35,053 bases of DNA from Alphaproteobacteria bacterium (lineage in GTDB: Bacteria; Pseudomonadota; Alphaproteobacteria; Rhodobacterales; Rhodobacteraceae). Within the stretch, counting starts at the first letter, position 1. Each line of letters begins with the position of its first letter. Location: contig JAUHWP010000021.1 in assembly GCA_030424645.1 (NCBI GenBank), positions 1-35,053 of the forward strand, read 5' to 3'. The translations under genes and the position numbers were made by a program. The notes under the pieces were generated by a model, which saw nothing but the letters and a program-made list of their open reading frames with translations, did not search any database and was not told where the DNA came from. Positions 17,456 to 22,011 of the stretch are shown piece by piece.

Positions 17456-18466
17456 TTACTTTTCGCCCAAATTAAGCTGCAGCCGGACAGCGGTTCCCGG
17501 ATTGCGCGGCACAATCGTCAGATCGGCGGACAGCGTTTTTGCCATTTGCCGCAAGATCTTGCCGCCCAAACCTGATTTGATCACATCGGTCTGCCCACCG
17601 GACATGCCGCGCCCGTCATCGGCGACCGTGATCGTGACACCATCCGACGCAATCGCCCCCTGCAACGTGATCGTTCCGCCGTTGTCGGCAAAGGCATGTT
17701 GAATCGCGTTGGTGACGATTTCGGCCACCATCATGCCAAGCTGGGTGGCCGTGTCGATGCTGACTTCAACCGGCACGGCGGGAATGTCGCGTTCAAACCC
17801 GACGCGATCTTCAAGATCGGTGACGGTCTCGCAGATCGTGGCGAGGTGGTCGAACAGATCAACCTTGTTGAAATCACCCGGCGCGTCGGCGCCCTGTTCC
17901 ATACCGGCATACAGCGTCTGAAGGGACTGGATGCGGTTCAGCACCGCCCGAAGCCCCTCGGTCTCGCCGCTTTCGCGGATTTGCAGCCGCACCGAAGAAT
18001 GGATCAGCGACAGGTGGTTTTTCAGACGGTGACTCAGCTCGGTCAGGGCGGTGTCGGACTGGCGCTGCGCTTCCAGCAGCGTTTCATAGGGGCTGTTCTC
18101 GATCTGCATCAAAACGCCGGTGAATCGTTGCAGGGCACCGTCGTCGTCACGGATCGGTTTGATCGACAACCGGTTCCAGAAGGTTGTGCCATCGGCACGA
18201 ACATTCAGAAGGTCCGCCGCGATCTCATCTCCGGTCTCAACGGCCCGACGTATGCGCGCAACCTCGTTTGCATCTGTTGTGGGGTGCTGAAGCAGGCGGC
18301 AGTTCTTTCCGATCAGTTGCGTCGGGTCATACCCTGTCAGGTCGCAAAACAGCTCGTTCACGAAGATCAGCGGATTGTCGGGCTGCGTCGGGTCGGTCAG
18401 ACAGGCCGCATAGGGCAGGTCCGACAGGTTCTTGCGCAGCCAGGAATCGTCATAGCACTGGGACAT
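17456..18466 (-). CDS. LOV-domain HWE/HisKA_2 histidine kinase
   Basis: 336 residues from the ATG at 18466; a TTG at 18508 would add 14. The N-terminal LOV domain (about 15-125) has the photoactive cysteine, Cys56, in IGKNCRLLQ, and the flavin-contacting Asn88 and Asn98 (LLNVRADG; FWNRL). The conserved glutamine expected after FVG(V/I) is Leu119 (RFTGVLMQIE). The kinase part has His146 in LSHRLKNHLSLIHS, N-box Asn253 (MVAEIVTNAIQHAF), the G1 box DDGRGM (283-288) and GLGGKIL (299-305), all intact. It should be a soluble blue-light-responsive kinase of the type that feeds PhyR in other alphaproteobacteria. It may thus be a real ATP-competent input for the stress pathway of this window. Confidence 0.93.
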   Translation of the reverse strand: MSQCYDDSWLRKNLSDLPYAACLTDPTQPDNPLIFVNELFCDLTGYDPTQLIGKNCRLLQHPTTDANEVARIRRAVETGDEIAADLLNVRADGTTFWNRLSIKPIRDDDGALQRFTGVLMQIENSPYETLLEAQRQSDTALTELSHRLKNHLSLIHSSVRLQIRESGETEGLRAVLNRIQSLQTLYAGMEQGADAPGDFNKVDLFDHLATICETVTDLEDRVGFERDIPAVPVEVSIDTATQLGMMVAEIVTNAIQHAFADNGGTITLQGAIASDGVTITVADDGRGMSGGQTDVIKSGLGGKILRQMAKTLSADLTIVPRNPGTAVRLQLNLGEK

Positions 18467-18651
18467 CGAACGACCTGCTCTGGTTACTGACGCCCAATGG
18501 TCCCACAAGGGATCGTCGGGCGCGAAATCGAATATGATCTGGTGGCATACAGACCGTTGACCCGCATCGCTTTTCTGCGTGCAGACGGAACGAAGATACC
18601 CGCACTGGAAGATGTCCCGGAAACCAGTGCCGGGTCAAGCGTTTGGCCGGA

Positions 18652-19071
18652 TCAACCGGGTCTGTCGGCGATTGCCGAGGCTGCTTCGGCCAAAGTCAGC
18701 TCGCGCAGGCCGACGGTGCCGATCAACTTGTCGTCTTCGATGACCAGCGCGACATCAAGGTTCAACCGGGTCAGCAGACGAATGGCATAGCGCGCCTGCA
18801 TGTTGCCCGAAAGATTGATCGCCGGCTTTTCCATCACCTCGTAAACGCTGACCCGCGAGGGTGCGCGGTTCCGGGCAAAGACCTGGCGCGCAATCATGCC
18901 GAGGGTCAGGACGCCGTATTCGTCATCGGGCGATCGTTTCTCGATCACCATCGTGTCGTGACCGGATGCTTCGAATATCCGCATCGCGTCGGCGACCGAC
19001 GCCAACCCGTTGATGACATGGGGGTCCTCTTGCACCGCATCGCGGACGCGGGTTTCCTCTGGCTGGCTCAT
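18652..19071 (-). CDS. CBS-domain protein (stand-alone pair)
   Basis: 139 residues, soluble, essentially two tandem CBS motifs. The first (about 10-60) reads VRDAVQEDPHVINGLASVADAMRIF in parts, with TMVIEKRSPDDEYGVLTLGMIARQ; the second (about 75-130) has VMEKPAINLSGNMQARYAIRLL, DVALVIEDDKLIGTVGLREL. Such pairs bind adenine nucleotides (ATP, AMP, c-di-AMP or SAM) and regulate a partner. Its start overlaps the stop of the PII-like gene by four bases (ATGA). It is last in the four-gene operon beginning at 21003, so the likely target is the DUF1538 transporter pair. Confidence 0.88.
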   Translation of the reverse strand: MSQPEETRVRDAVQEDPHVINGLASVADAMRIFEASGHDTMVIEKRSPDDEYGVLTLGMIARQVFARNRAPSRVSVYEVMEKPAINLSGNMQARYAIRLLTRLNLDVALVIEDDKLIGTVGLRELTLAEAASAIADRPG

Positions 19072-19421
19072 AGCTCGTCCTTCTCTAGCGAGGCTTTCAG
19101 CGCCTGGACCTGCGTTTCAAGGCCGATGGCGTCTTCGATGTCGATCTGGAACACCACGCCGCGGCCCGGTTCCTTCAGGAACTCGCCTGCGGTGCTGATG
19201 GTTTCAAGAATATTGGCGGCAAGGTGTTCCTCGACCAGGAACAGCGCCATGTCCCGCTGTCCGGCGACCGTAAGGCCAAGAAAGGTCTTTTTCTTTTCCA
19301 GCCCTTCGCCGCGAACGCTGGTGATGACGGTCGCCCCGGTCGCCCCCGCGCCGCGCGCCGCGTCGACAATGACGTCCGTATAAGCATCCTGCGCCAGCGA
19401 GATGATCAGTTTGAACTTCAT
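19068..19421 (-). CDS. PII-like signalling protein
   Basis: 117 residues. The start ([33 protein letters not shown]) and the following SVRGEGLEKKKTFLGL correspond to strand 1, helix 1 and the B/T-loop region of PII proteins (compare GMTVSDVKGFGRQKG in GlnB). Later GRGVVFQIDIEDAIGL matches the last strand. The canonical uridylylated tyrosine region is absent, so it belongs to the wider PII-like superfamily (as with SbtB or CutA-like regulators) rather than GlnB/GlnK. These trimers bind nucleotides and dock on a membrane transporter. It overlaps by four bases both the upstream DUF1538 gene and the downstream CBS gene, strongly implying it regulates that transporter. Confidence 0.85.
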   Translation of the reverse strand: MKFKLIISLAQDAYTDVIVDAARGAGATGATVITSVRGEGLEKKKTFLGLTVAGQRDMALFLVEEHLAANILETISTAGEFLKEPGRGVVFQIDIEDAIGLETQVQALKASLEKDEL

Positions 19422-20200
19422 TGGATGTCCTCCGTTTTTGCATTTGGCACGCGTGGCCGGGAACGTCTGGCGTCATTCCACGCTACCAGTTGCGCATAGC
19501 CCATGACGGTGATCATGGGAAACAGGCTGGCCAGCGCGATCAGGCCGAACCCGTCCAGCGCAGGGCTGCGGCCCGGCACGGTCGAGGCCAGCCCAAGCCC
19601 AAGGGCCGCCACCAGCGGCACCGTGACCGTCGATGTCGTGACCCCGCCGCTGTCATAAGCCAGCGGAACGATGGTTTTCGGGGCGAAGAAGGTTTGAACG
19701 ATGACGATGGTGTAGCCCACGATCATATAAAGATAGAGCGGTGTGCCCGTCACAATCCGGTAGGTGCCGAAGACAAGGCTGAGCGCGACGCCCAGTGCCA
19801 CCGCTATGCGCAAGCCCCATTCCTTGATCGTCCCGCCCGAAACCTCGCGGGCCTTGATCGCCACCGCGATCAGCGACGGCTCGGCAATGGTGGTTGAAAA
19901 GCCGATGGCAAAGGCGAACAGATAGGTCCAGCCATGGGCGGTCCAGTCCGTCGGGTCGCCCAGAAATGTCGGGTCGGTCAGTTGGCGGGCCATCGCCTCG
20001 CCCAGCGGGAACAGGGCTTCCTTCAGACCGAACAGGAACAGGCCCAGCCCCAGCACGACATAGACGCCGCCCACCAGCACGCTGCGCAGATGGGGCACGG
20101 GTTTGCGCAGCACGACGGCCTGAAAGAAGATCAGCACCGCAAGGATCGGCAAAACGTCCTTGATGGTCGCGGCGAATGTGGTCAGCAATTCCTGTATCAT
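19418..20200 (-). CDS. DUF1538 membrane protein, second subunit (UmpAB-type)
   Basis: 260 residues with about six or seven hydrophobic segments. It contains the two DUF1538 signatures, [16 protein letters not shown] (about 99-114) and [20 protein letters not shown] (about 182-201), also present in its neighbour at 20197-21003. The ATG at 20200 overlaps the neighbour's stop by four bases. From memory, a DUF1538 pair from Halomonas (UmpAB) has been described as a two-component Na+(Li+,K+)/H+ antiporter; I infer the same general role here. The paired [11 protein letters not shown] and TT-AEP elements look like the two inverted or duplicated halves of a transport site. The C-terminal tail is basic and its stop overlaps the PII-like gene start. 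Confidence 0.85.
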
Positions 20201-21003
20201 TGCATGGCCCCCACAATTCCGAAGCCCAGCACGAAGACGATGGGCAAAAGGCTGGCAAAGGCGACCAGGCCGAACCCGTCGATCATCGGGTTGCGGCCCT
20301 TGATGACACTGGCCAGACCGACCCCTAGCGCTGTGGTCAGGGGCACCGTCACGGTCGAGGTCGTAACCCCGCCACTGTCATAGGCGATGCCGATGATCTC
20401 GGCCGGGGCAAAGGCCGTCAGGATGACGACCAGCACATAGCCGCCGATGATCAGATAGTGGATCGGCCAGCCCAGAAGGATGCGCATGACGCCGATGACA
20501 AGCGATGACCCGACGGCTGCGGCCACCGTGTATCGCAACGCGTTGGCATAGCTCGTCTGCTCGGCCTGGCTGGCCCCGACCGCGCCGATATCGGCCATCA
20601 CCCGCGCAGCCTCGCGGCTGACGGCGATCAGGGCGGGTTCGGCGACGGTGGTGCCGAACCCAAGCGAGAAGGCGAACAGCAACAGCCAGAACAGGCTGCC
20701 CTTGTTGGCAAAGGCGTCGGCCAGGGATTCGCCGATGGGAAACAGGGCAAGCTCCAGCCCGCGAATGAAGATCGCAAGCCCGGCCATGACAAACAGAAGA
20801 CCGATCAGCTTGGTGCCGATGTCATCCATGGGCTGGCGCAGGATCAGGAACTGGAACACCGCAACAACCCCGACAATGGGCGCCAGATCGCGCGCGGTTC
20901 CAAGCGTCAGATGTGCAAGTGATTTGAACTCGTCCAGCAACGGATACCTGCCATTTCGTCGGATCAAAAGGCGGGCCTGTCGAACCGCGGCTTCCGTCAC
21001 CAT
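20197..21003 (-). CDS. DUF1538 membrane protein, first subunit (UmpAB-type)
   Basis: 268 residues, about six or seven membrane segments after a soluble 35-residue N-terminus. Signatures [16 protein letters not shown] (about 114-129) and [20 protein letters not shown] (about 206-225) are nearly the same as in the 19418 protein, so the two are paralogous and probably form a heteromer. It also has [17 protein letters not shown], matching [17 protein letters not shown] in the partner. It opens a four-gene operon with 4-bp overlaps at every junction (DUF1538, DUF1538, PII-like, CBS). The 99-bp gap upstream contains only a weak EcfG-like promoter (21073-21097). No strong ribosome-binding site is visible at 21003. 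Confidence 0.85.
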
Positions 21004-21102: not shown

Positions 21103-22011
21103 TCAGGCCTTTTGCGAGAAAGGATCCTTTGCGGTGTGCAACCTGAGATGCCGCATAAAGGCCCGCGCAGCGCCCGAGACCGGCCTGTCATCCGACGCGA
21201 CGAAATAGCTGCGATATTCGATCTGCGAGGCAAACGGCCGGAACACCACATCGTCCGAGCGGTATTGCACGATGGGAAACGGGTTCACGATGGTCAGCCC
21301 CAACCCCTCTTTCGCCAGGTCTACCGCCGCGAACGAGGTCGACGCCTCGGCCACGATGCGCGGTGTGCTGCGGTCGGCCTGAAGGACCTTGTCAAGCTGG
21401 GCCCGCCGTGCGTGGCGGTGCGTCAGGGCCACCAGGGCCTGATTGTGCAGGTCGATGGGATGGATGATCGGCCTGTCGGCAAGCGGATGATCATGTGGCA
21501 TCGCGCAGACGGCGGTGGCAGACCGATAGGGGGTCAGCTTCACGCCGTTGCGTGACAGTTCGACCCCACTGACCCCCAGATCGAAACGCCGCTCAAGGAT
21601 ACCTCGGATGACATCCTCGGATGGCGCAACCTCAAGGCTGACATAGAAATGCGGGTTGGTTTTCAGGAAGGTGGCAATGTGATGCACCAGGAACCGGTGG
21701 GCATAGGTCGGGGGCGCAATGATGCGCAGGGTTTCCTGCGCCATCTCGGGCGGGCCGTCGATCCGGTCCAGCGCTTCGAACAGCGGGTCAAGGCGACGGT
21801 TCATCTGCACCGCTTCGCTGGTGGGCCGCAGCCGCCCGCCTTCACGTTCGAACAGGATCCTCCCGGTGCGGGCTTCCAGGCTGGCAATCGACCGGCTGAT
21901 CGCGGATTGCGACAGGCCCAGCCGGACAGCGGCTTTCGAGGTCGTGCCGCTTTCCATCAAAGCGCGCAGGGCCTGATATTCGGGCAAACTGTGCCAGGAT
22001 TTCGTCGGCAT
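21103..22011 (-). CDS. LysR-family transcriptional regulator
   Basis: 302 residues, usual LTTR length. The N-terminal winged helix-turn-helix (about 8-66) reads YQALRALMESGTTSKAAVRL, then LSQSAISRSIASLEARTG. The C-terminal ligand-binding domain starts near residue 90 (MAQETLRIIAPPTYAHRF) and keeps the two-lobed pattern. It is transcribed divergently from the dipeptidase and peptide ABC operon, the classic arrangement for a regulator of the divergent genes. An 8-8-8 inverted repeat at 22045-22068 lies in the shared 115-bp gap and is the best operator candidate. The ligand is probably a peptide, amino acid or derivative, inferred only from the neighbours. Confidence 0.93.
   Translation of the reverse strand: MPTKSWHSLPEYQALRALMESGTTSKAAVRLGLSQSAISRSIASLEARTGRILFEREGGRLRPTSEAVQMNRRLDPLFEALDRIDGPPEMAQETLRIIAPPTYAHRFLVHHIATFLKTNPHFYVSLEVAPSEDVIRGILERRFDLGVSGVELSRNGVKLTPYRSATAVCAMPHDHPLADRPIIHPIDLHNQALVALTHRHARRAQLDKVLQADRSTPRIVAEASTSFAAVDLAKEGLGLTIVNPFPIVQYRSDDVVFRPFASQIEYRSYFVASDDRPVSGAARAFMRHLRLHTAKDPFSQKA

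Follow-up and report, generated by a model that had tools for sequence, protein, structure and literature searches.

AmtB-GlnK and NrtBCD-PII are systems whose PII proteins are of the canonical type. In both, PII is complexed with a membrane transporter, as the titles of the structure entries state (PDB 2ns1 and 8wm7), and PII and PII-like proteins are known to control carriers of ammonium, nitrate, and bicarbonate (PMC8352866; PMC6603209; here and below, statements on published systems are drawn from excerpts of the PubMed Central (PMC) articles given). In the SbtA-SbtB system, a carrier and a dedicated PII-like protein are encoded in one operon, and the T-loop of the PII-like protein inserts into the carrier (PMC8352866). 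A pair of DUF1538 membrane proteins, UmpA and UmpB of Halomonas zhaodongensis, forms a heterodimer with Na+(Li+, K+)/H+ antiport activity that needs both proteins, and in vesicles it exchanges Na+, Li+, and K+ for H+ with sub-millimolar K0.5 values (PMC5484666). Here we compare these systems with a four-gene unit in a 35,053-nucleotide stretch of Rhodobacteraceae DNA (assembly GCA_030424645.1, contig JAUHWP010000021.1, positions 1 to 35,053; hereafter the window), in which a DUF1538 pair is followed by a gene for a PII-like protein and one for a CBS-domain-pair protein. This layout resembles that of SbtA-SbtB; however, SbtA-SbtB is a bicarbonate transporter system and not a DUF1538 pair, and the CBS protein is an addition of the window module. 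The unit differs from AmtB-GlnK and NrtBCD-PII in that its PII-like protein lacks the canonical residues; canonical P-II proteins are encoded separately in the genome, by two other genes.

A preliminary description of the window had proposed a four-gene operon at positions 18652-21003 on the minus strand. All four open reading frames (ORFs) proved to be intact there, and each is backed by a Pfam match (lengths in amino acids, aa):

20197..21003, minus strand: gene 1, UmpA-like DUF1538 membrane protein, 268 aa as listed; PF07556, E=1.3e-65; best NCBIfam model UmpA NF041627, 340 bits against a cut-off of 490
19418..20200, minus strand: gene 2, UmpB-like DUF1538 membrane protein overlapping gene 1 by 4 base pairs (bp), 260 aa; PF07556, E=1.4e-67; best NCBIfam model UmpB NF041628, 320 bits against a cut-off of 500
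19068..19421, minus strand: PII-like protein with the T-loop signature RGEG-x4-KTF[FL]GL and an extra C-terminal helix in its model, 117 aa; PF00543, E=6.8e-10, 39.6 bits against a cut-off of 25
18652..19071, minus strand: CBS-domain-pair protein, kin to the CBS part of CBS-CP12, 139 aa; PF00571, E=3e-9, 37.5 bits against a cut-off of 24

We read these four genes as one functional unit, namely a cation/H+ antiporter of the UmpAB type and two soluble subunits dedicated to its control, and assign this reading a probability of about 0.62. The window genome (92% complete) holds a single DUF1538 pair. The host genus is probably Aliiroseovarius: other genomes of the genus share identical PII segments with named A. 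zhejiangensis and A. crassostreae records. The start of UmpA is uncertain, as about 28 of its N-terminal residues are absent from homologues; translation may in fact begin some 28 codons downstream.

The reading is carried mainly by the conservation of the neighbourhood. A survey of DUF1538 pairs had been set beforehand as the test, with a missing conserved neighbourhood as the outcome that would speak against the operon. We searched four sets of DUF1538 loci (class, genus, named, and gammaproteobacterial) with our own profiles for each of the four proteins and found the PII-like and CBS genes conserved beside the pair across several phyla. Among evaluable loci, a PII-like gene follows the DUF1538 pair in 24/25 of the class, 13/13 of the genus, 79/80 of the named, and 96/97 of the gammaproteobacterial set, and a CBS gene follows in 17/25, 13/13, 72/76, and 95/97, respectively. 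Contigs ending just after UmpB were set aside in these counts (2 of 27 class and 3 of 100 gammaproteobacterial loci for PII, 4 of 80 named loci for CBS). For the genus set, 13 of the 18 other positive genomes were fetched, and for the gammaproteobacterial set 100 out of 126. The named set was made up of the 80 best among at least 582 loci, a choice skewed to relatives of the query; it spans Desulfobacterota (Desulfopila aestuarii, Candidatus Electrothrix), Bacteroidota (Lunatibacter salilacus), and one metagenome-assembled genome (MAG) of Nitrospirae. A phylum search, with DUF1538 in 126 of 398 genomes, was used just for its 30 top loci, some of them from genomes that recur from other sets; PII was present in all 30 and the start of CBS visible in 23, the flanks being too short to score absence of CBS. 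Since the four-gene order recurs across phyla, it is not a matter of chance, and linkage of transporter and PII gene, our mark of a PII-controlled transporter, is conserved. The one PII miss in the class set is a decayed locus (L086) whose CBS remnant was scored as CBS present, and a weak PII match (30 bits) in a second decayed locus (L087) was scored as present. In L086 (G281:C1 88170-88642), the first 77 DUF1538 positions adjoin the last part of the CBS gene, as if one deletion had taken the middle of the module.

Presence and absence in whole genomes follow the same pattern. DUF1538 was found in 28, the PII-like protein in 25, and the CBS protein in 19 of 289 Alphaproteobacteria genomes, and every genome positive for the PII-like or the CBS protein is also DUF1538-positive. 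The thresholds (1e-10 and 1e-15) exclude ordinary P-II, with one match in the window genome despite its three P-II genes. DUF1538 genomes lacking a PII match are those with decayed remnants (G281 and G308) plus G170, the PII-like genes of which are recognised by a second profile only. One of the 20 CBS matches in the class sample (G079:C40, 1.6e-17) sits apart from the operon; in this genome an assembly break lies inside the PII gene, and CBS and DUF1538 are on different contigs. Within the genus, all three families occur in the same 19 of 21 genomes and none in the same 2. Adjacency and shared presence or absence together bear out the earlier claim that a dedicated PII-like and a CBS protein accompany the DUF1538 pair.

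Linkage of this kind could also have arisen simply because the genes are transcribed together or move horizontally as one block, with the soluble proteins acting elsewhere, for instance in metabolism. The module does sit in differing surroundings even within one genus, and DUF1538-PII blocks are found on plasmids: in all five annotated plasmid loci (Methylocystis and Chelativorans, both alphaproteobacterial, and three Clostridia), DUF1538 is directly followed by a gene annotated as 'P-II family nitrogen regulator', and two unannotated clostridial plasmid loci have a PII profile match as well (7 of 9 records found were examined). However, co-occurrence in the class and genus surveys is complete, the linkage is kept across phyla as the outer neighbours change, and PII control of an adjacent carrier is established for SbtA-SbtB (PMC8352866), so that we regard mere co-transfer or co-transcription as very improbable. 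As a separate observation, three clostridial plasmid loci (L223-L225) encode a single-chain double DUF1538 followed by a protein of 217-222 aa with two PII domains; two PII domains lie in a longer 305-aa frame in L227, and one was detected in L226. In two alphaproteobacterial loci (L083 and L085), a single-chain double DUF1538 is followed by two PII-like genes in tandem.

With regard to the carrier, the window holds two adjacent DUF1538 proteins of which one is UmpA-type and one UmpB-type, and gene order and best models (UmpA, then UmpB) are those of Halomonas UmpAB. As described before, both proteins carry [15 protein letters not shown] and TT-AEP-LIAV. They fall below the NCBIfam equivalog cut-offs, with 340.4 of 490 bits for UmpA and 320.2 of 500 bits for UmpB. 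The UmpA cut-off is very narrow, because 0 of 369 sampled gammaproteobacterial genomes exceed it (NF041627), and none did so in one family or order either (the same 20 genomes). Judged by these matches, the window pair was filed as DUF1538/UmpAB-type rather than as a UmpAB equivalog. The suggestion that the two proteins form a heteromer is very probably correct: both DUF1538 halves lie in one ORF in 16 of 213 unique loci, a natural fusion that supports a joint complex, and the Halomonas homologues co-immunoprecipitate (PMC5484666). The same article is the source of the two-component Na+/H+ antiporter that the preliminary description had named, and antiport in the window species would be an extrapolation from this one Halomonas pair. 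A part in balancing cations and pH would agree with a machine-learning study that names DUF1538, with the Mrp, Trk, and Kdp transporters, among the features tied to optimal bacterial growth pH (PMC13255231).

The third protein belongs to the PII superfamily by both its P-II Pfam match (39.6 bits, cut-off 25) and the PII fold of its AlphaFold2 model, which has a mean predicted local distance difference test (pLDDT) score of 82, an extra C-terminal helix, and a low-confidence loop at about residues 35-56. Best Foldseek matches in the PDB were CPII and classical PII proteins, with E-values of about 7e-6 to 1e-5 and CPII first; all 50 rows listed are PII or CPII entries by title, and SbtB is absent from these 50. 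The loop is strongly conserved among 207 sequences (R37 97%, G38 99%, G40 98%, K45 86%, T46 93%, F47 99%, G49 100%, L50 94%), and on this alignment it is likely to be a conserved partner-binding loop. Ratios of non-synonymous to synonymous substitution (dN/dS) for the PII gene were 0.02-0.06 against eight loci of the same CBS-motif clade.

That CPII ranks first bears on a different account of the carrier, in which Na+/H+ antiport is a side activity and DUF1538 pairs carry some other substrate (such as bicarbonate with Na+ or H+) that the PII-like protein reports, just as CPII and SbtB report inorganic carbon. Complexes of CPII with adenosine di- or monophosphate (ADP/AMP) and with bicarbonate are among the 50 rows listed, and the functional data found come from one Halomonas pair in antiporter-deficient E. 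coli (PMC5484666). The Foldseek E-values for CPII and ordinary PII are, however, nearly equal, the 22 commonest flanking-gene clusters, viewed by eye, showed no functional theme and no pointer to carbon fixation, and the vesicle measurements cited above describe direct exchange of Na+, Li+, and K+ for H+. A carrier of another substrate therefore appears quite unlikely to us.

Under our antiporter reading, UmpA and UmpB would jointly form the membrane carrier, and a trimer of the PII-like protein (presumed from its relatives) would dock on the cytoplasmic face. The conserved loop RGEG-x4-KTF[FL]GL would then insert and gate transport, in the way GlnK acts on AmtB, and SbtB on SbtA. A second, modulating input would come from the CBS protein, whose gene mostly stands right behind that for PII but is absent from some lineages; ancestrally it was probably an adenylate sensor (AMP or adenosine triphosphate, ATP) that acted on the PII-like protein or through it. 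In the Aliiroseovarius clade of the window, where the CBS protein is kept but its motif is lost, it would probably serve as a binding partner or as a sensor of something else.

Several observations weigh against this reading, and those on the unit and its carrier are considered here. The complex of UmpAB with the PII-like protein, with the loop in the carrier, is itself a prediction. Linkage is less tested in divergent members, because the 26 gammaproteobacterial genomes left out of the set include the weakest UmpA matches. CBS is absent beside some complete loci (4/76 named and 2/97 gammaproteobacterial evaluable loci) and in 8/25 class loci, namely L077, L078, the decayed L087, and five whose DUF1538 pair is a single chain; the CBS profile gave no match in any of the seven plasmid loci; and two loci (L110 and L329) have DUF1538 without a PII match nearby, L329 also being without UmpB. 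A natural UmpA-UmpB single chain (L324) was modelled (16 rows, pLDDT 80.5, predicted template modelling score 0.81), and it had no PDB match at E<=0.001 (best E 7e-3, template modelling (TM) score 0.14), so the transporter model lends no structural support to a docking site for PII. EAAT/GltPh was considered as a structural relative and was not used, given its weak ranking (TM about 0.14). Finally, Halomonas umpA and umpB alone work in antiporter-deficient E. coli with no PII or CBS gene added (PMC5484666). The two soluble proteins are therefore not needed for transport, which fits a role as regulators.

The junctions between the genes add a further point on this side. The preliminary description had noted an ATGA overlap at every junction and concluded that stoichiometry is fixed. 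The overlaps are indeed present in the window (20197-20200, 19418-19421, and 19068-19071), but they are not conserved across the 213 unique loci, a set reached by dropping seven loci whose PII segment was the same as in another locus (six between sets and one within the gammaproteobacterial set). A 4-bp overlap is found at the PII-CBS junction in 149 of 189 scored loci, making it the most conserved, at the UmpA-UmpB junction in 74/207, and at the UmpB-PII junction, the least conserved and the one that joins carrier to presumed regulator, in just 42/204. As the overlaps are not a conserved property of the module, they imply no fixed stoichiometry. In one gammaproteobacterial locus (L247 2883-4272), UmpB and PII-CBS lie about 1.4 kb apart. 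An apparent UmpB-PII fusion in L072 (384-aa frame) was rejected, since AGGAGG and the usual ATG start remain inside and the frame looks like read-through; it may stem from a sequencing error or a lost stop.

The remaining points on this side concern ligands. We take Q39, the B-loop K90, R101, and R103 (E. coli numbering) to be the residues with which canonical PII proteins bind ATP and 2-oxoglutarate. All are absent from the PII-like protein: compared with the canonical P-II of the same genome and with PDB profiles, it has no glutamine after the K/R-G-x-G turn, no B-loop lysine, and no arginines near the C-terminus. Canonical sensing of ATP and 2-oxoglutarate is on these grounds not likely. 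In CBS pairs, the nucleotide motif is S/T-x-x-D. The window CBS does not have it in either repeat (T56..M59 and G121..E124), having lost D59, S/T121, and D124 to M59, G121, and E124. Among 196 CBS sequences of the family, D59 is found in 166, S/T121 in 171, D124 in 134, and S/T121 with D124 in 123; S/T56 with D59 occurs in just 10, so the first-repeat motif is reduced family-wide. The nine sequences without all three positions are all from Aliiroseovarius, two of them from the same strain. CBS dN/dS values were 0.05-0.09 against other loci of the same clade, near those of the other three genes, and higher against other subtypes of the genus (0.18-0.42, and 0.66 against the MAG locus L129). Because it is under purifying selection in its clade, the CBS protein is functional though motif-poor, and in the window clade it is probably no ordinary nucleotide sensor.

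These data could also be taken to mean that the PII-like and CBS proteins have a constitutive part in assembling or stabilising the transporter and read no small molecule, as would suit a PII-like protein without canonical ligand residues, a CBS protein kept under selection after losing three motif positions, and a first-repeat pair that is rare in the whole family. Most CBS relatives nevertheless retain D59, a majority also S/T121 with D124, and the UmpAB heterodimer works in E. coli with neither protein present (PMC5484666). On balance we consider a purely structural role unlikely and keep to control subunits. For the carrier, the preliminary term 'nucleotide-gated' is overstated, because the PII-like protein is without canonical ligand residues and the window CBS without the three motif positions. 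The best solved relative of the window CBS is the CBS part of CBS-CP12 from Microcystis (PDB 5nmu, profile match 2.1e-28), from which it differs by having no CP12 tail and by the positions lost in its clade; CBS-CP12 is reported to bind AMP (PMC9406205). A more specific version of the control-subunit reading can be offered tentatively, at somewhat less than even odds: in a widespread module, a non-canonical PII-like trimer would switch the DUF1538 antiporter and an AMP-responsive CBS protein would feed into PII, such that energy charge sets Na+/pH exchange, the CBS arm of the window clade having become ligand-independent or re-tuned.

The preliminary description knew of no account of this combination, and we found none in the open PMC literature, although two PII reviews cited by PMC13249358 may mention it. 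Open PMC papers that name DUF1538 make no relevant mention of PII (the 'pii' in PMC7221264 is part of a motif string), no title or abstract in the open PMC literature on UmpA/UmpAB, PII-like proteins, CBS, or antiporters describes the combination, and the excerpts of the cable-bacteria literature citing UmpAB do not mention PII. The text of the UmpAB paper likewise contains neither PII nor CBS, and where it describes the cloning, no ORF is given downstream of umpB in the 4.2-kb insert (PMC5484666). Transporter-PII pairs as such are known; what is new here is the different carrier family, the non-canonical PII, and the third soluble protein. With a PII-like protein so closely bound up with a family in which Na+/H+ antiport is reported, the range of PII control would come to include cation and pH homeostasis, and the module suggests a little-studied route by which cells may control salt and pH balance. 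It also gives a concrete partner both to DUF1538, with one characterised pair in the literature found, and to a PII-like branch without the usual ligand residues. The results further suggest that the published UmpAB measurements may concern a carrier without the soluble partners that nearly all surveyed relatives encode.

The unit ends with these four genes. Flanking genes were counted in 198 loci (22 were dropped: 7 with an identical PII segment, 13 genus loci, L101, and L107), and the most recurrent flanking-gene cluster was found in at most 21 of the 198. Within the genus, too, the outer neighbours vary while the four genes remain. Two adjoining genes were rejected as members, a LysR gene (21103-22011) and a LOV-type kinase gene, both seen just in close relatives among 46 loci searched; the dipeptidase and binding-protein neighbours of the window are likewise kept just in its closest relatives in these 46 loci. 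The kinase is the following feature:

17456-18508, minus strand: LOV-type histidine kinase just downstream of the CBS gene; sequence GKNCRLLQ; PAS, HWE/HisKA_2, and HATPase domains; NCBIfam blue-light kinase, 154 bits, below the cut-off of 450

Two subtypes of the module exist within Aliiroseovarius, one in L093, L097, L099, L100, and L107 and the other in the window and L089-L092. They are about 70% alike in UmpA/UmpB and 40-44% in CBS and differ in gene surroundings, which suggests that the module was replaced by horizontal transfer. In gammaproteobacterial loci (for example L144, L259, and L315), the module often lies between nadC-like and ampD-ampE-like genes, named by eye, in clusters of 15, 21, and 7 loci.

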